A stretch of 64,000 bases of DNA from Candidatus Saccharimonadota bacterium (GTDB lineage: Bacteria; Patescibacteriota; Saccharimonadia; Saccharimonadales; Saccharimonadaceae): assembly GCA_016286785.1 (NCBI GenBank), contig JAEEUB010000001.1, positions 45,788 through 109,787 on the forward strand, read 5' to 3'. Under the pieces are notes generated by a model. The model ran no database searches. It was given only the letters and a program-made list of their open reading frames with translations, and was not told where the DNA came from. The position numbers and the translations under genes are program-made. This document shows positions 3,858 through 64,000 of the stretch, one piece after another; within the stretch, counting starts at the first letter, position 1, and the number at the start of each line of letters is the position of its first letter.

Positions 3858-5780
3858 TTAAGTACCGGCCGTACACCTAATACTGGAGCCGAGGTACTTA
3901 TAGCCGCCACTGGTACCTGGGTACACGCTGGAACTACCCAGGTACAGGTAGTAGCTAGTGTCGCTATCGCTCGCAGTCGCAGTAGACGACCAATAGTCGC
4001 CGTAGCTACCTCTACCGCGGGCGGACGACGTAGTGAAGCTGCCGGAATAGAGGAAATTATTAGGATAAGCTCTTATAGCTTTAGACATATCAGAAGCTTC
4101 AGGAGAACCAGTATAGTAAGGTTGAGTACTACTTCCATAATTAGCTGGATTTGTTCCCCCATTAATTCCAGTAACTACTAGTGACCAGAAATCATTATTG
4201 GCTTCATTGGATTTATCACCTCCTTTTGGTAAGTACCAACCAGCTGGACAAAGTGAAGTATTTGATACACTACTATTATTGGTGCCATTGTAGGTGAGAT
4301 CTGCTATGGCTGCGTGCCAGGTGTAGTAGTTGCCATAACTATACATACCTACCGTAGTGTTATTGTTTGTAAATGTATTGCTAGTAGGGTTCTGTGGTCT
4401 ATTACTAGCATTAGCAGGAGTATTAAGGTTATTATAACGTGGTATACGATCACCTGGATTATTTGATGTGCCGATGTTTATACTAGCAGTACCTGACTGA
4501 GTACCACTGTAATAGAGGGAGTTAGCGGTGGTGGAGTAGGTGAAGTTAGCTGATTCTGCATCAGCGAGACCGGAGAAGTTGCCATAAGTAGTACTAGTAC
4601 CATAGCCTTGGGCTAGAGCAATATCTTCTGCACTAGTGGTGTCGTCTGCTTCTAGCCTTAAGTTTTCTATCATCCAGCATTTATCATCAGCTAGTTTAGC
4701 GATAGCATAGGTTTCATTGTCTCTGCTATCGGTTAAAGCAGATACAGATGCTAGATTTGCAGTACCATTAGTAGGAGCAGTGGTTAGGCTTCCGGCACCA
4801 GTACCACAAAGCTGTGCTACTTTAGTAGAATCTTGTAAGCTACCTTGTGATTTAATCCATACAGCATATAGGCTAAGTCCATTAGTAGTAGTTCCAGTAG
4901 GTACAGTAATGGTTTCTTGTGGACCATAAAAATGAGCATTCTGGTTGGTAGCATAATCAAAAGCATCAGACCATCCTGCAAAGCCATAACCTTCCCTACT
5001 GAAGTTGGAGGCAAGGAGAACTATATCATTACCATCAGACGCAGACTGACAGCCCATAGTACCTAGTACATTAGAGCCATTCGGGAAGTAGTTGATGCAT
5101 CCTGCTGTAGCTGGTTGTGGCTGTAGTGGTGTTTCATTTGCTGGATGTACTAGTGTGTATTTAACTTTACCTTCATATGTATCAGCAGGTTGGGTTCTGG
5201 ATACATAAGCTGCATATGTAGTAGTAAGAGTTGAGCCTTCTGCATTAGTTCCTATATCAGTACCAGAATCTCTATGTGCTACTTTAGTATAAGTAGATGG
5301 TACTATACTATAGCTTCCATAGCCATTGTCTAGTGTAATAGGATATGTTGGTGTTGGAGATGATACTGCCGTTAGTTTCATAGCCCAGTTAGATGTGTCA
5401 GGATTTCCTGCAGATGTAGCTGTTCCTGTAACTATAGTATTACTAGTACTTTGTCCTATTAGTGTAGTAGTACCATATGTATCATCAGTGTATCCTATAG
5501 TATATATAGAAAAACCATTACTATCATTACAATAAGCTTTAAGTGTGGTAGTACCTATATCTGCAGTATATGTACCATTAGTAATTTCTGCAGTATGTGA
5601 GTTCATGCCAGTGCCGGTCATAGTACAAGATTCTGGCACATTGATGGTCACTTGGTCTACTATGGAGTCGTCAGCAGAGACGTTACTAGAATTAAGTATG
5701 ATTCCGGAAAGAAATGTAAAGCTAATTAAGACCACAAAAATATATAATGAAAAGTTAGTTTTACTGTATGACTTTAGCAT
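3858..5780 (-). CDS. Secreted surface protein with InlB-like repeat region and C-terminal FISUMP-like domain
   Basis: Signal peptide; INYFPNGSNVLGTMGC...YGFAGWS...LSLYAVW; KLADDKCWMIENLRLEA ... NLCPAGWYLPKGGD. Confidence 0.75.
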   Translation of the reverse strand: MLKSYSKTNFSLYIFVVLISFTFLSGIILNSSNVSADDSIVDQVTINVPESCTMTGTGMNSHTAEITNGTYTADIGTTTLKAYCNDSNGFSIYTIGYTDDTYGTTTLIGQSTSNTIVTGTATSAGNPDTSNWAMKLTAVSSPTPTYPITLDNGYGSYSIVPSTYTKVAHRDSGTDIGTNAEGSTLTTTYAAYVSRTQPADTYEGKVKYTLVHPANETPLQPQPATAGCINYFPNGSNVLGTMGCQSASDGNDIVLLASNFSREGYGFAGWSDAFDYATNQNAHFYGPQETITVPTGTTTNGLSLYAVWIKSQGSLQDSTKVAQLCGTGAGSLTTAPTNGTANLASVSALTDSRDNETYAIAKLADDKCWMIENLRLEADDTTSAEDIALAQGYGTSTTYGNFSGLADAESANFTYSTTANSLYYSGTQSGTASINIGTSNNPGDRIPRYNNLNTPANASNRPQNPTSNTFTNNNTTVGMYSYGNYYTWHAAIADLTYNGTNNSSVSNTSLCPAGWYLPKGGDKSNEANNDFWSLVVTGINGGTNPANYGSSTQPYYTGSPEASDMSKAIRAYPNNFLYSGSFTTSSARGRGSYGDYWSSTATASDSDTSYYLYLGSSSVYPGTSGGYKYLGSSIRCTAGT

Positions 5781-5855
5781 AAGCTAATTATATATAATAT
5801 ATTGTGGATGGTCAAGAAACTTTAATGGCATTGAAAAATATGAAAAATCATTATT

Positions 5856-5993
5856 TTACGCAGTAAGTCTCGCGCGTCCCTTAATGCGGCGACGTGCTAA
5901 TACCTTGCGACCACTTTTAGTCGCATTTCTTTTCATAAAACCATGTTCAACTTTACGTTGCTTTTTGTGGGGTTGGTATGTTCGCTTTGGCAT
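5856..5993 (-). CDS. rpmH: 50S ribosomal protein L34 (45 aa; below the ORF track cutoff)
   Basis: Translated by eye: [45 protein letters not shown]. Confidence 0.96.
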
Positions 5994-6219
5994 ATTATTC
6001 CTTAAATTTTAACTTATTTCAAAAACTTATTATAGTATACTCCATTTTTCCACATTTTTCAATATCTTTTCCACACCTTTTATAGATATATATCAGTTTC
6101 TGTGGAAAACACTAACCTGTTTTATTAAAACCATATTTCAACATATTTTTCCAAAATAAAACCTGTGGAAAACTTCATTTTTTCATGCTATACTGTTTGC
6201 AGTAAGGAGGTTTATATCA
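5994..6219. other. Probable oriC (DnaA-box cluster, AT-rich)
   Basis: TTTTCCACA at 6046-6054 and 6067-6075; reverse complement TGTGGAAAA at 6101-6109 and 6164-6172; between rpmH and dnaA. Confidence 0.85.
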
Positions 6220-7575
6220 ATGTTTGACGTCTGGAAGAACGTTTTAGCTGAGATCGAACAGCAAATATCCCCAGCAAATTTTGCCACTTGGTTCCAAGAT
6301 ACTTCGCTTGTTACCACTAAAGACGGCCATGTTATCGTCGGTGTTAAAAATTCCTTCTATGTCAAACAATTACGCGCCCGTTATTACGATCTAATCGAAA
6401 AATCCCTCAAAAATAATGGCGTAGATGTAAAGGATATAGATTTTGAAGTTGTCTGTAAAACTAAAAACAGAGTCCGCTCCCGTGAAGTCACAACACCAAA
6501 ACCAATCAAAGAACAAATTAGGACCATTCGTGATAAAACCGAAACCAAGTCAAGAAGTGATGGCTTAAATCCAAAATACACTCTAGATAACTTTGTTGTG
6601 GGTTCCAACAATGAACTTGCCGTTGCAGCGGCTCGTAGTATTATCAGCTCTCCAGGTACCAGATACAATCCATTTTTCCTTTATGGCGGCCCAGGTCTTG
6701 GTAAAACCCACCTGGTTCAAGCCATCGGCAATGCCCTTCTAAAAGACAATCCAAATTACAAAATTTTTTACACTCCAATTTCCCACTTTTATTCTGACTT
6801 TATCGACGCCATTCAAAAAGGCAAAGGTAAAGAATTTAATCTTCGCTTCCAAAAATTAGACTGCCTCATAATCGATGATTTTCAATTCATCGTTAATAAG
6901 GAAAAATCCCAAGAAGAATTCTTTAATATTTTTAACGACCTCTACCAGCTTAATAAACAAATCATCATTACCTCAGATCGTCTGCCCTCCCAAATTAAAA
7001 CCGTTGATGAACGTCTTGCTTCGCGCCTCACATGGGCCGGAGCCTTCGACCTTCAACTTCCAAAGTTCGAAGACAAATGCGCTATCCTTCGCGCCAAAGC
7101 CGAACTCATCGGTGCCGAAATCGAACCAGAAGCAATTGAATATATCGCCGAAAATGTTAACACAAATATTCGTGACCTAGAGGGTGAATTTTCTACTCTT
7201 CTTTTAATGTCCGAAGTTCGCGGGCTCACCCCATTACAGCTTATCGAAAACGGTTCCGTATCGGTTAATAAAACCTCAAAACATCGTCCCACCTCTCCTA
7301 AACAAGTCGTAGATAAAATTGCAAAGTATTATCAACTTACTAGCAAAGAATTATGTAGCAAATCTCGTGTGTCCAACATCAAAAACGCTCGCCAAGTTGC
7401 CATGTTCATTCTATCCGAAGAGCTAAACCTAAGCACCAATAAAATCGCCGCCGAAGTCGGAGTAAAAGATCACACCACAGTTATGCATGGAATAAAAAAG
7501 ATCAAAAACGACCTCAAGCTCAACTTCCTCTTAAGGGAGCAAATCGATGAAATCAAGGAGAAAATTTATGGCTAA
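6220..7575 (+). CDS. dnaA: Chromosomal replication initiator DnaA
   Basis: Walker A GGPGLGKTHL, IIDDFQF, C-terminal DHTTVMHGIKKI; SD AAGGAGG. Confidence 0.97.
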   Translation: MFDVWKNVLAEIEQQISPANFATWFQDTSLVTTKDGHVIVGVKNSFYVKQLRARYYDLIEKSLKNNGVDVKDIDFEVVCKTKNRVRSREVTTPKPIKEQIRTIRDKTETKSRSDGLNPKYTLDNFVVGSNNELAVAAARSIISSPGTRYNPFFLYGGPGLGKTHLVQAIGNALLKDNPNYKIFYTPISHFYSDFIDAIQKGKGKEFNLRFQKLDCLIIDDFQFIVNKEKSQEEFFNIFNDLYQLNKQIIITSDRLPSQIKTVDERLASRLTWAGAFDLQLPKFEDKCAILRAKAELIGAEIEPEAIEYIAENVNTNIRDLEGEFSTLLLMSEVRGLTPLQLIENGSVSVNKTSKHRPTSPKQVVDKIAKYYQLTSKELCSKSRVSNIKNARQVAMFILSEELNLSTNKIAAEVGVKDHTTVMHGIKKIKNDLKLNFLLREQIDEIKEKIYG

Positions 7576-11181: not shown

Positions 11182-11271
11182 GGAAGTGTGGCCGAGTGGT
11201 TGAAGGCGCACGCTTGGAAAGCGTGTAACGGTTTGCGCCGTTCGCAGGTTCGAATCCTGTCGCTTCCGCCA
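11182..11271 (+). tRNA. tRNA-Ser (GGA)
   Basis: Acceptor GGAAGTG/CGCTTCC-G-CCA; anticodon loop TTGGAAA; long variable arm. Confidence 0.95.
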
Positions 11272-11315
11272 TAAAATAGACATAGAAGAGCTTGCTCTTC
11301 TAGGGCTATTTTCAA

Positions 11316-11351
11316 GGAAGCAAGGGGATGAATATCCTGTCGCTTCCGCCA
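11316..11351 (+). repeat. tRNA-Ser(GGA) 3'-end copy as minihelix
   Basis: GGAAGCAAGGGGATGAATATCCTGTCGCTTCCGCCA shares ATCCTGTCGCTTCCGCCATAA with the tRNA 3' end and folds GGAAGC/GCTTCC plus GGAT/ATCC. Confidence 0.8.
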
Positions 11352-17674: not shown

Positions 17675-17839
17675 TGGCGGAAGAGAGAGGATTCGCACCA
17701 AAGGTCCGAATCCGTATACTTTTTTCAAATGAAATTTGGCGGAAGAGAGAGGACTCGCACCGAAGGTCCGAATCCGTATCTTTTTCATCTTGTTATATCT
17801 AGCGGAAGAGAGAGGATTCGCACCAAAGGTCCGAATCCG
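17675..17839 (-). repeat. Three tandem tRNA-Ser(CGA) 3'-end copies (17675-17714, 17737-17776, 17800-17839)
   Basis: Each reads (minus strand) CGGATTCGGACCTTTGGTGCGAATCCTCTCTCTTCCGCCA or near variant; 62-63 bp period in register with the tRNA at 17863. Confidence 0.9.
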
Positions 17840-17862
17840 TACTTTTTTCATCTTGTTATATC

Positions 17863-17953
17863 TGGCGGAAGAGAGAGGATTCGAACCTCCGAACGGGTCA
17901 ACCCCGTCACACGATTTCGAGTCGTGCGCCTTCAACCACTCGGCCACTCTTCC
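17863..17953 (-). tRNA. tRNA-Ser (CGA)
   Basis: Acceptor GGAAGAG/CTCTTCC-G-CCA; anticodon loop CTCGAAA; long variable arm. Confidence 0.95.
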
Positions 17954-29378: not shown

Positions 29379-30523
29379 TCCTGAATCGATATTCTCGGAT
29401 AAATATTCAGTTTATAAGGGTTAACGGGGTTTACTCCAGACAAAATCTCAAAATAGCACGCCGCCGCTACCATCGCTCCGTTGTCTCCAGAAAGAAAAGT
29501 AGCAGGGAAATAAGCCTCTGGCAATGCTTCACGTAGAGCCTGGTTTGCCGAAACGCCACCAGCGATTACTACGGATTTAGTTTCGGGGTATTCTCTCTTT
29601 GCCATTTCCAGTTTTTCAACCAAAATTTCTACCGCTGTTTTTTGGAAAGAAGCCGCAAAATCGCAAACCTGTTCAGCACTCAGTAATTCTTTTAGCTTAT
29701 GCGAGGGGTAAGAGATCGGTACCCCTAACTCTTTCTGAACAGCTCTCAGTACGGCGGTTTTCAAACCCGAAAAAGAAAAATCTAAACCCTCAACTTTTGG
29801 ATGAGGCAACTTATACTTATCCGAGTCACCTGGCCTAGTTGCGCCTTCTATCTCACCCCTAGCCGCCCTGGTAATACTCGGCCCCCCAGGATATGGTAAG
29901 CCTAGTATTTTGGCAACCTTATCAAAACACTCACCTATTGCATCATCATGCGTAGTACCAATAATTTCAAATTTATTATGCCCAGGCATATAAAGAATTT
30001 GTGTATGCCCTCCACTAACTACTAGTGCCAATAAGGGAAAATTAGGTGTAGCAAACAGATTAGAAGACGAATCTAAGGCTGAATCATCTGAGGACCATAA
30101 GCTTGGCCGAACGGCCTTGAGTGTGTCCGAAGATGATTCAGCTTTGGATTTGGTAACCTCTAACCAATTTGCGTATACATGCGACTTTAGATGATGTACG
30201 GCATAAAGGGGCTTATTATGTAAAATCGCAAGGGTTCGCGCCGTTAATGTCCCAATTAGCAGCGAACCAAGCAATCCAGGTGCATGAGTCACAGCAATCG
30301 CATCAATATCATTCCAGGTGCATGATGCATCAAGTAGCGCTTTCTTAACTACCGGCATCATAGCTTCAAGGTGTGATCTTGCGGCTACCTCTGGTATTAC
30401 GCCACCGTATTCGGCAAAAATATCAATTTGAGACACCACGACATTAGAGAGAATTCGCACGCCATCTTCCACGACCGCTGCCGCAGTTTCATCACAACTT
30501 GTCTCGATTCCTAATATTTTCAT
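29375..30523 (-). CDS. tsaD: tRNA N6-adenosine threonylcarbamoyltransferase TsaD, with in-frame element insertion
   Basis: MKILGIETSCDETAAAVV, VVSGGHTQILY, VIAGGVSANQALRE. Confidence 0.95.
   Translation of the reverse strand: MKILGIETSCDETAAAVVEDGVRILSNVVVSQIDIFAEYGGVIPEVAARSHLEAMMPVVKKALLDASCTWNDIDAIAVTHAPGLLGSLLIGTLTARTLAILHNKPLYAVHHLKSHVYANWLEVTKSKAESSSDTLKAVRPSLWSSDDSALDSSSNLFATPNFPLLALVVSGGHTQILYMPGHNKFEIIGTTHDDAIGECFDKVAKILGLPYPGGPSITRAARGEIEGATRPGDSDKYKLPHPKVEGLDFSFSGLKTAVLRAVQKELGVPISYPSHKLKELLSAEQVCDFAASFQKTAVEILVEKLEMAKREYPETKSVVIAGGVSANQALREALPEAYFPATFLSGDNGAMVAAACYFEILSGVNPVNPYKLNIYPRISIQD
30078..30142. repeat. Second copy of the inverted-arm element, inside tsaD
   Basis: GCTGAATCATCTGAGGAC / GTCCGAAGATGATTCAGC arms (16/18 paired) around the identical 29-bp core 30096-30124. 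Confidence 0.9.
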
Positions 30524-33548: not shown

Positions 33549-33680
33549 TGGCTGGACCGGCAGGTTTGTCATCCAAAACCGGTCGCAGGAAACAAAAAAA
33601 ACGAGAGCAAACTCTCATTTTTTCTTTCCTGGCTGGACCGGCAGGATTCGCTTCGAGCGAAGCAAGAACCGAATTCTCGC
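33549..33680 (-). repeat. tRNA-Gln 3'-end copies, distal module (33549-33589, 33630-33680)
   Basis: Both end ...CCTGCCGGTCCAGCCA on the minus strand; separated by GAGAG/CTCTC hairpin plus T-run. Confidence 0.88.
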
Positions 33681-33738
33681 TTTTTGGTTTTCGTGAAATA
33701 AGAAATAGCTAGACTAAAAAAACATGTTGTGGACTATA

Positions 33739-34044
33739 TCACCTACGCATCAGTTCTATAGACGTATCTTTCACTCTCAACGCTTTCGCATCGTCCATAC
33801 TCTTTATGTCATCATTATTTAAAACTTTCAGCGCTCCAAAACCTCTCACCACCAAAATCTCACTATCCTTCACTACAAGTACAGTCGGAAAACCTGAAAC
33901 AATTACTTTGCCTTCACTATTTGCGATAACATAAACAACCGCTCCATCATCTAATACTCTCACCTTTTTAATCGCGTCCCACATTCCACCTTCCTTCACG
34001 AATTCATTGTTTTTCGCCCACTCTAAAACTTCTTCTTCCGTCAT
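33739..34044 (-). CDS. Hypothetical 101-aa protein lying between tRNA-Gln 3'-end modules
   Basis: ORF preceded by GGAGGATAAAAAATG; no recognised domain. Confidence 0.7.
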   Translation of the reverse strand: MTEEEVLEWAKNNEFVKEGGMWDAIKKVRVLDDGAVVYVIANSEGKVIVSGFPTVLVVKDSEILVVRGFGALKVLNNDDIKSMDDAKALRVKDTSIELMRR

Positions 34045-34088
34045 TTTTTATCCTCCATTATTTTATTTAAATTGTATCACAAACCTTG

Positions 34089-34214
34089 TGGCTGGACCGG
34101 CAGGATTGTCATCCAAGACCGGTCGCAGGAAACAAAAAACGAGAGCAAGCTCTCATTTTTCTTTCCTGGCTGGACCGGCAGGATTCGCTTGGAACGAAGT
34201 GACAAACGAATCTG
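34089..34214 (-). repeat. tRNA-Gln 3'-end copies, proximal module (34089-34129, 34167-34214)
   Basis: Near-duplicate of 33549-33680 about 540 bp away. Confidence 0.88.
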
Positions 34215-34242
34215 CTTTTTTGTGCGATACCTTTAGGTATCG

Positions 34243-34317
34243 TGGCTGGACCGGCAGGATTCGAACCTGCGAATGCTGGGACCAAAACCCAGTGCCTTAC
34301 CGCTTGGCGACGGTCCA
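34243..34317 (-). tRNA. tRNA-Gln (TTG)
   Basis: Acceptor TGGACCG/CGGTCCA-G-CCA; anticodon loop TTTTGGT. Confidence 0.95.
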
Positions 34318-60077: not shown

Positions 60078-63000
60078 GTGCAAAACAAATTCAAAACAAA
60101 ATCAATCCTCGCAGGATTTAGCGTAATAATAGCTAGCTTTTTAGTTTCTAATGCTTTTAATACTGTTTCTGTTTCTGCTTACTCCGCTTCTCTTACCACT
60201 AGTAACGATATCTCTCTTGATGCAGTAATGTCTGAGGATGGTACTTCAATTCATAGTGAATCTATTAATGTCCAAACGGATTGTAGGGCAGGATATAACC
60301 TAACTATAGCTACACCAGAAGGTAGTGATCTATATAAATACGATAATGGTACCCAATCTAGTAATACTGCTTCCTTTACTGCAGTAGATGGTACTTCTGC
60401 TTTAAATAGTAATAACAACACTAATAAGTGGGGATACACTCTAACTACTAATCCATCTGGTTCTACCATCTTCTCACCATTATCTACTACAGAATCTATA
60501 CTAAAGACTGCATCTCAAACTGCATCCCCTACAAGCGATATTAACGATACCTTTAATATTAACTATGGTGTTAAAGTAGATCGTTCTATGGGTATAGGTA
60601 GCTACAAAATGGCTAATAATGGTACTGTTGTTTATTACCTTACTATGGATACAACTTGTTCAGAATATACAGTAGCCTTTAATCCTAATGGTGGTACTGG
60701 AACTATAGCAAATCAAAAAATCCAAACTGGAGAACCAACTAAACTTACTGCAGCAGATGCATTTAAATCTCCTACTGGTTCTTCTTACACAGACGCAGGG
60801 AACAACACTATTACCGGAGAGGCAGGTAAACTCTGGGCTTTTTGGGGTTGGAACACAGCTATAGATGGTACTGGTGATTGGTATAAAGACAGAGAAGAAG
60901 TAGAAGACCTAGTAAGTGCAGGTAGTACTATCACACTATATGCTCAGTGGAAACAAGCTACACTTTCTGACATGACTTCGTCTCCTGCTCCTGGCCCATC
61001 CGATCCTAAACCAATTAATCATGATGAAATGCAGGATATGAGACCAGAAATCTGCTACAACTCTACAGCCTATAGTACAGATACTAGCTCTCCTGCTCAT
61101 ACTCCATATAATGCTTCTACTAATCCAGGCGGTTACCATACTATTACTTTACTAGATTATCGTGGTAAAGTAACAACTGGCTCTTCTCCAGAACAACCAG
61201 AACAATATACTGTATCTAAACTCCCAGACAACCTATGTTGGATGACTAAAGATCTAAACCTAGGTAGAACTAGTGGTGGAGCTAATGGTGATGGCACTAT
61301 TACACTAACTAGCGATGATACAGACCTAGCTAATAACACTACTTTTACTCTTCCAGTTTCTCCAACTACCTATACTACAAGTCATACGACTCCACAAATT
61401 CTTATTAACCACACAGTCTCACAATATACTGTTGATGGAATAAATTATTCACCTACCACCAGCTATTATTCCTGGGCTGCTGCTACTGCTACTAATACAT
61501 CTATTACGGCTAGTGGTAATGTAGCTACATCCATTTGTCCTAGAAACTGGGACTTACCAATTAATACTCAATATACTAATCTAAGAACTAGGGGCTCAAT
61601 TACAACTGCAGCTATCGCTCATGCTGAGCCTTATAACTTTATCTATGGTGGTTATCGTAATGGCGCAAATAGCTACTATAACCAAACATCTACTGGTTAT
61701 TACTGGAACTCAACCAATAATAACTCTAGCTATGCTTACCGAACATACATTAATAGTAACGGTATATATAGTTCAACTGCTACGGGCCAAAAATACTACG
61801 GCAATAAGTTAAGGTGCGTGGCTAGTAGTGGTACTGCTACTGTTGATTACAATGCTAATGGTGGTACTGGTACCATGCCAAGCCAAAACAATGCAGAGCT
61901 TAATTCTACGACCGTTAGTGAAAACTCTTTTACCGCTCCAGCTAACAGTCAGTTTAGGAACTGGAACACTAGAGCTGACGGTACTGGTACTACTGTAACT
62001 CCAGGTACGTCTTTACTAGACGTTGTTTCAGTTGGCGAAACTATCACCCTTTATGCTCAATGGGATGAGCTGTATTATATCGCCTTTAACGCTAACGAAT
62101 CCAGTGTAGGTGCTACTCCTGGCTCTGCTACTGGTACTATGACTAATCAGACCATTATCACAGGTACATCTACCGCCATAAAGACTAGTACCTTTGCGCT
62201 TTCTGGTTATTTGTTCTATGGTTGGAATACAGCTGCTGATGGTACTGGAATAGCTTATGGCGACGAACAAAAGGTTACTAATCTCACCTCTACCGGTAAT
62301 ACCATTACTCTCTACGCTGTTTGGAAAGATGGTGCTTATCTAGACACTGGCTCTACTGTAAACCAAAAACTTAAACGACTAGCCGGGAATAGTTCAGCTA
62401 CTTATTCCACCCAGGATAATACTATTACCGCAATTGTTCGCTCCAATGCTTTACCTAGCGGCTTCACTCCTTCTAATGAAAACACCATCTCAGATAGCAC
62501 TTCACCATTTCCGATTTATGCTTGGTATGACTCAGAGGATACTACTATCTACTATTATTCTGAATCTACTACAATTCTTATGAATAAATATTCTGGCGGC
62601 TTCTTTCGTAATATGCGTGCTTTGTCTAATCTGTCTACTGTTTCTACTTGGGACACAACCAAAGTGACGAATATGTCCGAAATGTTCGAATCTGCCGGTT
62701 ACTCCGCCACTACTTTCACTTTGGACCTCTCCTCCTGGAATACTGCTAGTGTGACGAGTATGTTATATATGTTCGAATCTGCTGGCTACTCCGCCACCAC
62801 CTGGTCTATAGGCGACCTCTCTTCCTGGAATACTGCTAGTGTGACGAGTATGAGTAACATGTTCTCCTCTGCTGGCTACTCCGCCACCACCTGGTCTATA
62901 GGCGACCTCTCTTCCTGGAATACTGCTAGTGTGACGAGTATGTCCTATATGTTCTACCGCGCTGGCTACTCCGCCACCACCTGGTCCATAGGCGACCTTT

Positions 63001-64000
63001 CTTCCTGGAATACTACTAGTGTGACGAATATGATTTACATGTTCTCCAATGCGGGCCGCTCTGCCACCACCTGGTCCATAGGCGACCTTTCTTCCTGGAA
63101 TACTTCTAGCGTAACGGACATGGGCTATATGTTCTCCTATGCTGGCTACCTCACTACCGCCTGGTCCATAGGCGACCTTTCTTCCTGGAATACTTCTAGT
63201 GTGACGAATATGTATCAAATGTTCTCCAATGCTGGCTACTCCGCCACCACTTTCACTTTGGACCTCTCCTCCTGGAATACTTCTAGTGTAACAAATATGG
63301 GTAGTATGTTCTTCGCTGCTGGCCAATCCGCCACCACCTGGTCCATTGGCAATCTCTCTTCCTGGAATACTGCTAACGTGACGACTATGTCCTATATGTT
63401 CTCCTACGCCGGTTACTCTGCCACCACCTGGTCCATAGGCGACCTCTCCTCCTGGAATACTTCTAGTGTAACAAGTATGGGTAGTATGTTTGAATTTGCT
63501 GGCTATTCCGCCACCACCTTCACTTTGGATCTCTCCTCCTGGAATACTTCTAGTGTGACGTATATGGTTGACATGTTCTCCAATGCCGGTTGCTCTGCCA
63601 CTACCTGGTCTATAGGTGATCTCTCCTCCTGGAATACTTCTAGTGTAACGAGAATGTCCGATATGTTCTACCGTGCTGGCTACTCCGCCACTACCTGGTC
63701 TATAGGCGACCTCTCCTCCTGGAATACTTCTAGTGTAACAAGTATGGGTAGTATGTTCTTCGCTGCTGGCTACTCCGCCACCACCTGGTCTATAGGCGAC
63801 CTCTCCTCCTGGAATACTTCTAGTGTGACGTATATGGTTGACATGTTCTCCAATGCCGGTTACTCCGCTACCACCTGGTCTATAGGTGATCTCTCCTCCT
63901 GGAATACTTCTAGTGTAACAGATATGAGTAACATGTTCTCCTACGCCGGTTACTCCGCCACCACCTGGTCTATAGGTGATGCCTCCTCCTGGAATACTTC
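60078..64000 (+). CDS. Very large secreted repeat protein, truncated by window end (GTG start; absent from ORF track)
   Basis: Signal peptide VQNKFKTKSILAGFSVIIASFLVSNAFNTVSVSAYS; InlB-like repeats (VAFNPNGGTGTI..., VDYNANGGTGTMP...); FISUMP-like LPDNLCWMTKDLNL; DUF285/BspA-type repeats; frame checked at 62280. Confidence 0.85.
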   Translation, partial: MQNKFKTKSILAGFSVIIASFLVSNAFNTVSVSAYSASLTTSNDISLDAVMSEDGTSIHSESINVQTDCRAGYNLTIATPEGSDLYKYDNGTQSSNTASFTAVDGTSALNSNNNTNKWGYTLTTNPSGSTIFSPLSTTESILKTASQTASPTSDINDTFNINYGVKVDRSMGIGSYKMANNGTVVYYLTMDTTCSEYTVAFNPNGGTGTIANQKIQTGEPTKLTAADAFKSPTGSSYTDAGNNTITGEAGKLWAFWGWNTAIDGTGDWYKDREEVEDLVSAGSTITLYAQWKQATLSDMTSSPAPGPSDPKPINHDEMQDMRPEICYNSTAYSTDTSSPAHTPYNASTNPGGYHTITLLDYRGKVTTGSSPEQPEQYTVSKLPDNLCWMTKDLNLGRTSGGANGDGTITLTSDDTDLANNTTFTLPVSPTTYTTSHTTPQILINHTVSQYTVDGINYSPTTSYYSWAAATATNTSITASGNVATSICPRNWDLPINTQYTNLRTRGSITTAAIAHAEPYNFIYGGYRNGANSYYNQTSTGYYWNSTNNNSSYAYRTYINSNGIYSSTATGQKYYGNKLRCVASSGTATVDYNANGGTGTMPSQNNAELNSTTVSENSFTAPANSQFRNWNTRADGTGTTVTPGTSLLDVVSVGETITLYAQWDELYYIAFNANESSVGATPGSATGTMTNQTIITGTSTAIKTSTFALSGYLFYGWNTAADGTGIAYGDEQKVTNLTSTGNTITLYAVWKDGAYLDTGSTVNQKLKRLAGNSSATYSTQDNTITAIVRSNALPSGFTPSNENTISDSTSPFPIYAWYDSEDTTIYYYSESTTILMNKYSGGFFRNMRALSNLSTVSTWDTTKVTNMSEMFESAGYSATTFTLDLSSWNTASVTSMLYMFESAGYSATTWSIGDLSSWNTASVTSMSNMFSSAGYSATTWSIGDLSSWNTASVTSMSYMFYRAGYSATTWSIGDLSSWNTTSVTNMIYMFSNAGRSATTWSIGDLSSWNTSSVTDMGYMFSYAGYLTTAWSIGDLSSWNTSSVTNMYQMFSNAGYSATTFTLDLSSWNTSSVTNMGSMFFAAGQSATTWSIGNLSSWNTANVTTMSYMFSYAGYSATTWSIGDLSSWNTSSVTSMGSMFEFAGYSATTFTLDLSSWNTSSVTYMVDMFSNAGCSATTWSIGDLSSWNTSSVTRMSDMFYRAGYSATTWSIGDLSSWNTSSVTSMGSMFFAAGYSATTWSIGDLSSWNTSSVTYMVDMFSNAGYSATTWSIGDLSSWNTSSVTDMSNMFSYAGYSATTWSIGDASSWNT
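62640..64000 (+). repeat. 90-bp (30-aa) near-identical tandem repeats, DUF285/BspA type
   Basis: GDLSSWNTSSVTxMxxMFxxAGYSATTWSI; CTTCCTGGAA recurs at 62821, 62911, 63001 and 63091, exactly 90 bp apart. Confidence 0.92.

Follow-up and report, generated by a model that had tools for sequence, protein, structure and literature searches.

RtT-like units closing in the local tRNA tail lie behind about a third of the tRNA genes of a Candidatus Saccharimonadota genome

The subject of this study is a tRNA-Gln(TTG) gene of a parasitic Candidatus Saccharimonadota bacterium (assembly GCA_016286785.1, contig JAEEUB010000001.1) and the array of tail repeats that follows it. The source genome comprises 766,527 bp in 25 contigs and is 97% complete; the window, the whole 64,000-nucleotide stretch of DNA that was analysed, corresponds to G000:C16:45788-109787. 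The tRNA gene, located by ARAGORN at 34243–34317 on the minus strand, possesses an encoded CCA and the T-loop TTCGAAT. Exact copies of its 3′ tail, ATCCTGCCGGTCCAGCCA, start at 34167 (copy A), 34089 (copy B), and 33630 (copy A′), and a fourth copy at 33549 (B′) differs by one mismatch in 18 nucleotides and is exact over CCTGCCGGTCCAGCCA. The tRNA and four tail copies reported in a preliminary description of this DNA are thereby confirmed, B′ with that mismatch. Searching with the 16-mer tail at up to three mismatches returned five matches at the locus, all exact, and four matches elsewhere with three mismatches each; controls returned three.

Each tail copy constitutes the 3′ half of a hairpin, the 5′ half being an inverted tail copy, and four units can be delineated on the minus strand. 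By sequence and fold, unit A (34167–34242) consists of a leader hairpin, CGATACC..GGTATCG (34225–34242), and a tail hairpin, GATTCG..CGAATC, with the tail copy at 34167–34184. Unit B (34089–34166), also defined by sequence and fold, opens with a terminator-like palindrome, GGAAAG..GTTTCC (34128–34166), followed by the inverted tail, a GACA loop, and the tail copy at 34089–34106. Unit A′ (33630–33690, from sequence) is a tail hairpin closing in the tail copy at 33630–33647; unit B′ (33549–33629, sequence and fold) joins a palindrome (33588–33629) to a minihelix closing in the tail copy at 33549–33564. GAGAGC..GCTCTC hairpins occupy the two palindrome intervals, 34128–34166 and 33588–33629. The minihelices of B and B′ are stems with a four-base GCCA overhang, resembling an acceptor stem that carries its discriminator and CCA. 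Relative to shuffled sequence, units A, B, and B′ fold with z scores of −5.1, −5.5, and −4.6, each forming two hairpins; unit A′ displays no extra stability (z −0.8). Between the two unit pairs lies an open frame of 101 codons, an orphan ORF (33739–34044, minus strand). Predicted signals for this ORF were read from the sequence at 34052–34078 (minus strand): a −10-like GATACAAT (34071–34078) and a Shine-Dalgarno GGAGG (34052–34056) situated 7 nt upstream of the ATG. Copy A shares 89% identity with A′ over 56 nt, and copy B 96% with B′ over 51 nt, at a spacing of 537–540 bp, which bears out the earlier observation of an ORF between two repeated modules 540 bp apart.

Similar units lie elsewhere in the window and were overlooked in the preliminary description, as were the inverted 5′ halves of the hairpins. 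The tRNA-Ser(GGA) gene (11182–11271) and a single unit (11272–11351), a palindrome plus minihelix GGAAGC..GCTTCC GCCA, together span 11182–11351 on the plus strand, as established by sequence, fold, and synteny. On the minus strand, at 17675–17953, the tRNA-Ser(CGA) gene (17863–17953) is followed by three tandem units at 17800–17862, 17737–17799, and 17675–17736 (sequence and fold); these measure 62–63 bp, each reading GGATTCG-GACCTTYGGTG-CGARTCC plus the tail.

A tail scan covered all 47 distinct tRNAs of the source genome. At least 13 of the 47 genes are followed by one to four same-strand units, each closing in the 3′ tail of its own tRNA, and another three or four have degenerate units behind them; the phenomenon spans about a third of the tRNA genes. 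Exact 16-nt tail copies were detected within 200 nt downstream of Lys-CTT, Glu-CTC, Arg-CCT (two), Ser-GCT, Trp (two), Gly-GCC, Met, Val-GAC, Arg-TCT, and Ser-GGA. Within the same distance Ser-CGA has three copies, one with a mismatch, and the four copies of Gln-TTG reach to ~700 nt downstream. The unit array of tRNA-Tyr is split over two contig ends, and degenerate long units with a partly decayed tail copy follow Pro-TGG, Val-TAC, Glu-TTC, and Pro-GGG. With 13-mer tails and at most one mismatch, 20 copies were found downstream, one upstream, and none with the reversed tail; these controls rule out a chance origin of the tail copies. Because assemblies frequently break at tRNA-unit arrays (for example at contigs C22, C8, and C25 of the source genome, G000, at C13 of G020, and at C39 of G036), unit numbers are underestimated.

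A common plan emerges for the units: a terminator-like palindromic hairpin, the inverted tail or T-arm, a short loop or structured core, and a direct tail copy of 16–27 nt that often continues through CCA. Read outward from the tRNA gene, and with T denoting the palindrome, the elements run tail–T–inverted tail–tail–T′, a duplicate-inverted-duplicate arrangement. In class A, the inverted T-arm and a short loop precede the T-arm 3′ half, the acceptor strand, and CCA; in its common subtype the T-loop is invariably GGTGCGA, not GGTTCGA. Class B consists of a near-complete inverted tail, a 4-nt loop, and the tail. The larger class C (~130 nt) begins with the inverted T-arm, a GTA loop, and the T-arm 5′ half; a conserved core of ~55 nt, GTAGGAGCCGAG-hairpin-GAGGCGACGCC plus a further hairpin, is placed within the would-be T-loop, and the T-arm 3′ half and tail follow. 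Two further Patescibacteria families follow the same plan, at a tRNA-Arg (L258) and a tRNA-Gln (L259). Literature searches turned up no relevant report of tRNA-tail repeats in Patescibacteria.

Searching 85,488 species genomes for the class C core yielded at least 117 stretches. Among the matches listed, nearly all carriers are labelled Candidatus Saccharibacteria, mainly from ruminant gut, and 74 of the 104 Saccharibacteria core matches lie within 320 nt downstream of a same-strand tRNA, representing 25 isoacceptors. In an alignment of 39 class C units, 80% of cells are paired and 35 of 42 pairs exhibit two-sided changes, a count in which the poorly aligned 3′-most hairpin pairs poorly. The covariation score is 0.453 against 0.166 for shuffled alignments (0/500) and at most 0.18 for slid controls. 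Compared to Rfam, class C produced no gathering-level match, which rules out that it is a family already described there. The class A1 hairpin pattern was absent from 2.9 million viral contigs, and a viral origin of class C was rejected, the single viral match being chance-like and devoid of the P3 pairing.

Both arms of the units match the adjoining tRNA. For the class C downstream copy, the unit's own tRNA is a better match than the tails of other isoacceptors in 55 of 68 units, and, with all classes pooled, the inverted arm fits the cognate tail in 80 of 90 units (Wilcoxon p 8e-14). The P1 arm forms 7.18 of 8 pairs with the cognate tRNA and 5.88 with non-cognate tRNAs, the maximum of 1000 shuffles being 6.16. 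The inverted arm is closer to the reverse-complemented T-arm (46) than to the T-arm 5′ strand (4). Directly behind CCA, 4.6 of 6 nt of the first palindrome are paired, as compared to 2.3 at unit-free tRNAs (p 4e-11), and 23 of 87 units have a leader similar to the sequence that follows the tail copy, against none in non-cognate comparisons. In G235, a tRNA without an encoded CCA is followed by a copy likewise lacking CCA; the tail therefore derives from the gene and not from the mature tRNA, and retro-copying of mature tRNA is ruled out. No reverse transcriptase was found in the source genome; 12 of 18 congeners encode one (11 above the cut-off).

RtT repeats have so far been an oddity known from a single E. 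coli tRNA operon. The four RtT units of E. coli tyrT (RF00391, rttR) are tandem post-tRNA units in which the inverted tail comes first and the tail with CCA last (GGGGAAGGATGAGAA..AGGTTCGA..TAATCCTTCCCCCACCACCA), the plan described here, and the units of both organisms carry the same deviation, GATGAGAA, in place of an exact inverted T-loop. Part of the likeness must stem from the universal letters of the T-arm; the shared GATGAGAA does not, as it deviates from the exact inverted T-loop. The RF00391 model aligned end to end with the class C unit at the tRNA-Tyr of L205 (24.3 bits, E 0.49), the best score obtained and short of the gathering score of 45 bits; other relatives reached at most 21.6 bits, with four of six weak matches directly behind tRNAs. 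In the reverse direction, the class C model R1 returned the four E. coli RtT units as top matches (E 0.006–0.05). Among 14 control genomes, RtT was found in E. coli only. Both organisms have a post-tRNA repeat in which an inverted copy upstream pairs with a copy of the tRNA 3′ tail, and we treat the units as RtT-like, not as members of RF00391. They differ from RtT, which is known at one E. coli tRNA locus, in occurring at about a third of the tRNA genes and in many short and long classes, and in having terminator palindromes, passenger genes, and interspecies exchange.

Unit content varies between relatives. Units accompany 7 of 46 tRNAs in G004, of the same genus (six with intact tails plus a truncated tRNA-Gln unit), 14 of 33 sampled in G064, and 1 of 34 in G334, of the same family and another genus. 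At syntenic tRNAs of the source genome and G004, Ser-GGA is filled in the former and empty in the latter, Ser-CGA has three units and none, and Arg-GCG none and one. The additional 80 bp at Ser-GGA begin right after CCA and close in the tail plus CCA, a junction read from the sequences, the aligner's gap placement being arbitrary. Behind tRNA-Gln, content differs in nearly every congener. At tRNA-Val, L125 and L210 carry a 188-bp unit that is 98% identical, with flanks 74% (upstream) and 65% (downstream) identical; the acceptor and its copy agree within each genome, as CATCACCC in one case and as CACAACCC in the other. At tRNA-Glu, the units of L129, L165, and L176 are 96% identical as compared to 73–74% for their flanks. 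With unit identities of 96–98% against 73–74% in the flanks, units are exchanged between species. In the pairs L129/L176 and L106/L124, collinearity ends precisely at the tail copy. As no pair of units from different isoacceptors is 88% identical or more, mobility between different tRNAs is not established.

The T-loop bears on where units are found. In the source genome, G004, and G064, units accompany 31 of 81 tRNAs with G57 (TTCGA) and 3 of 44 with A57 (Fisher p 1e-4); at Arg-GCG, Ser-GCT, Thr-CGT, and Trp, for which position 57 differs among these genomes, a unit occurs only with G57. Unlike TTCAAA, TTCGAA is palindromic.

Most units, viewed genome-wide, carry no gene. The 101-aa ORF belongs to no family in Pfam, NCBIfam, PHROGs, or PADLOC, has no match among viral contigs and no relatives in 118 congeners, and was thus found in 1 of 119 genomes. 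A second passenger region follows tRNA-Val(TAC) of the source genome (L037, ~5680–7226): a class C unit, 1.3 kb with two ORFs of 154 and 114 aa, a degenerate tail, and a class A unit. These ORFs have weak profile matches to phage membrane proteins. The source genome and L197 have the 1.3-kb region in common, yet possess different units at both CCA-type junctions. Besides Gln and Val, a search for cargo cassettes found intervals of 0.9–5.9 kb at chance level (~13 expected, by estimate).

Taken together, we read the tRNA-Gln locus as a series of RtT-type tRNA-tail units, with the 101-aa ORF as a passenger between two unit pairs and template switching as the putative origin, a reading to which we give a little less than an even chance. 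Snap-back template switching is favoured because of the duplicate-inverted-duplicate order, the palindrome at each turn, the cognate tails, and the lack of a fitting enzyme. At any tRNA gene end, the T-arm (TTCGAA) and the terminator would be neighbouring palindromes; a replication strand snapping back twice would copy the tail first in inverted and then in direct orientation, in a miniature tandem inversion duplication. Such a process would require no integrase, and the copied tail would automatically be that of the host tRNA. Tandem duplication could later multiply the units, cores and occasional genes could be gained or lost, and homologous recombination could spread units between species. 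Saccharibacteria are naturally competent and hence equipped for homologous recombination (PMC10633639). Snap-back switching is a known model for large tandem inversion duplications. Those of Salmonella (Kugelberg 2010, as cited in PMC4689423) likewise possess duplicate-inverted-duplicate order and palindromic junctions, and are far larger than the ~60–200 bp that an entire event would involve here.

Several observations weigh against template switching. It leaves the ~55-nt core of class C, and the occurrence of that core at non-tRNA sites, unexplained if it acts alone, and the strong covariation implies selection on structure. The inverted acceptor plus CCA part is absent in classes A and C (p 0.59) and, not being significant over all units, was discarded as a general feature. 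When stratified by isoacceptor over all loci, the G57 effect has an odds ratio of 3.3 (p 0.07). No intermediate of template switching was observed, and the comparisons are all between species and partly between metagenome-assembled genomes.

That the units are primarily functional RNA, either structured 3′ trailers or small RNAs freed by tRNA 3′-end processing at the copied tail, with their spread being secondary, is possible, if well short of probable. The covariation suggests an RNA function, which would be compatible with template switching as well as with insertion. Units always lie on the strand of their tRNA, the annotated RttR RNA of E. coli ends exactly at the copied CCA, and the class B units resemble acceptor minihelices with a discriminator and CCA overhang. 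Set against these findings, most class B and C units open with a hairpin resembling an intrinsic terminator, so that the remainder should be poorly transcribed, and many tRNAs with units in one species are without them in another, truncated copies being common.

The main rival for the origin is insertion of palindromic miniature elements akin to YPAL/RU-2 at dyad symmetries, here the T-arm, such that the tail copy would be a long, variable target-site duplication; we hold this to be unlikely. YPAL/RU-2 of Yersinia is ~168 bp long, palindromic, inserted at dyad symmetries with duplication of 3–26 bp of target, and known from empty and filled sites (PMC2229807). The likeness is to that description, which mentions no tRNA-tail specificity. 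The 16–27 nt tail copies, the preference for palindromic G57 T-loops, the insertion exactly behind CCA with empty and filled sites at tRNA-Ser(GGA), and a conserved core common to many tRNAs and non-tRNA sites all fit an element of this type, as do the locally matched acceptors of L125 and L210 within otherwise 98% identical units. YPAL-like sequence conservation to both ends was not found; only the core is conserved, and the T palindrome that makes up the first half of a unit, like the arms, is locus-specific. Furthermore, the inverted arm, present at Ser-GGA too, is derived from the target, which normal insertion does not provide, no transposase is known, and near-identical units were not found at different tRNAs. 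No Y1 transposase (IS200/IS605 or REP/RAYT type) was found in the source genome and 18 congeners, a search that did not extend to other transposase families.

Duplication of a tRNA tail is usually read as an integrase footprint, and the preliminary description likened the locus to a gene cassette integrated at a tRNA 3′ end. Its cassette-like side holds up in the CCA junctions, species-variable content, exchange, and the tRNA-Val cassette; the tRNA-targeting integrase does not, as the only tyrosine recombinase (PF00589) of the source genome is of the Xer type and shared with nearly all relatives. The repeats cannot be taken for attachment-site flanks of one cassette, given the many gene-free units and the number of tRNA genes involved. 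That description would have yielded to an ORF and repeats fixed in all relatives, which is far from the case for this ORF, and to a genome free of recombinases, which the single Xer-type enzyme nearly makes it. Integron- or tycheposon-like cassettes that a site-specific recombinase, either the resident Xer or one acting in trans, would have joined to tRNA 3′ ends are in our estimation improbable. tRNA-targeted elements and integron cassette arrays share the repeated tRNA 3′ ends, ordered units, and occasional ORFs, and junctions are re-used by different units (source genome and L197; L129 and L176). Unlike those systems, the arrays described here come without an integrase or an attC-type site and are mostly non-coding; short units with cognate tails behind more than 20 isoacceptors would be unexpected from one integrase, and the viral contig searches offer no source. 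With one Xer-type recombinase and neither IS200 transposase nor reverse transcriptase in the source genome, an integrase cassette is unproven. Scars of past prophage or plasmid integration, suggested by the resemblance of the tail copies to att cores, are very improbable and largely refuted by the inverted arms, the covariation, the cognate arms of all classes, the tandem arrays, and the want of phage genes and of far tail copies in the genome.

The same architecture behind more than 20 isoacceptors, with arms matching the local tRNA, makes the units an RtT-like class whose origin is testable by comparison, for which cultured, transformable Saccharibacteria could serve as model organisms. That tRNA-tail duplications may arise without an integrase is relevant to software that predicts genomic islands from such repeats.

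Other palindromes are present at and away from tRNAs. A palindromic 33-nt core, ACACACTCAAGGCCGTTCGGCCAAGCTTATGGT, occurs in the window at 30094–30131 and 1843–1880 and in L011 (~3686) and L080 (~7761); it forms the tip of perfect inverted repeats of 13–28 nt that differ at each of the four sites, one of which lies in frame inside tsaD. Of the intact congener tsaD genes that were read, most harbor insertions of this type, which vary but occupy the same loop, and others are empty. CIRCE-type repeats, GAGTGCTAA, usually precede groE/dnaK genes; the class C core lies within or adjoining them in L096, L191, and L198. It is also located in larger GC-rich structured intergenic palindromes away from tRNAs (L104, L115, L123, L145, L206, L167, and L169), with two cores 780 bp apart in L115. 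Another palindromic element, whose core CATGCTCGCTCGGTCAATAACCGCACTTCGCATGAAG is the tip of locus-specific inverted repeats, lies beside tRNA units in L064 (~1624–1750), L069, and L138. Saccharibacteria might carry mobile palindromes that take their arms from the sequence adjoining the landing site (inverted and direct tRNA tails, CIRCE, intergenic spacers, tsaD), a generalization that we regard as tentative and rather doubtful; to our knowledge, no target-templating insertion mechanism without a known transposase has been described. Behind tRNA-Gln in L054 and L060 lie sequences resembling the template and variable repeats of diversity-generating retroelements. At the end of the window (62649–64000), at least 14 in-register copies of a ~90-bp repeat probably encode a repetitive surface protein.
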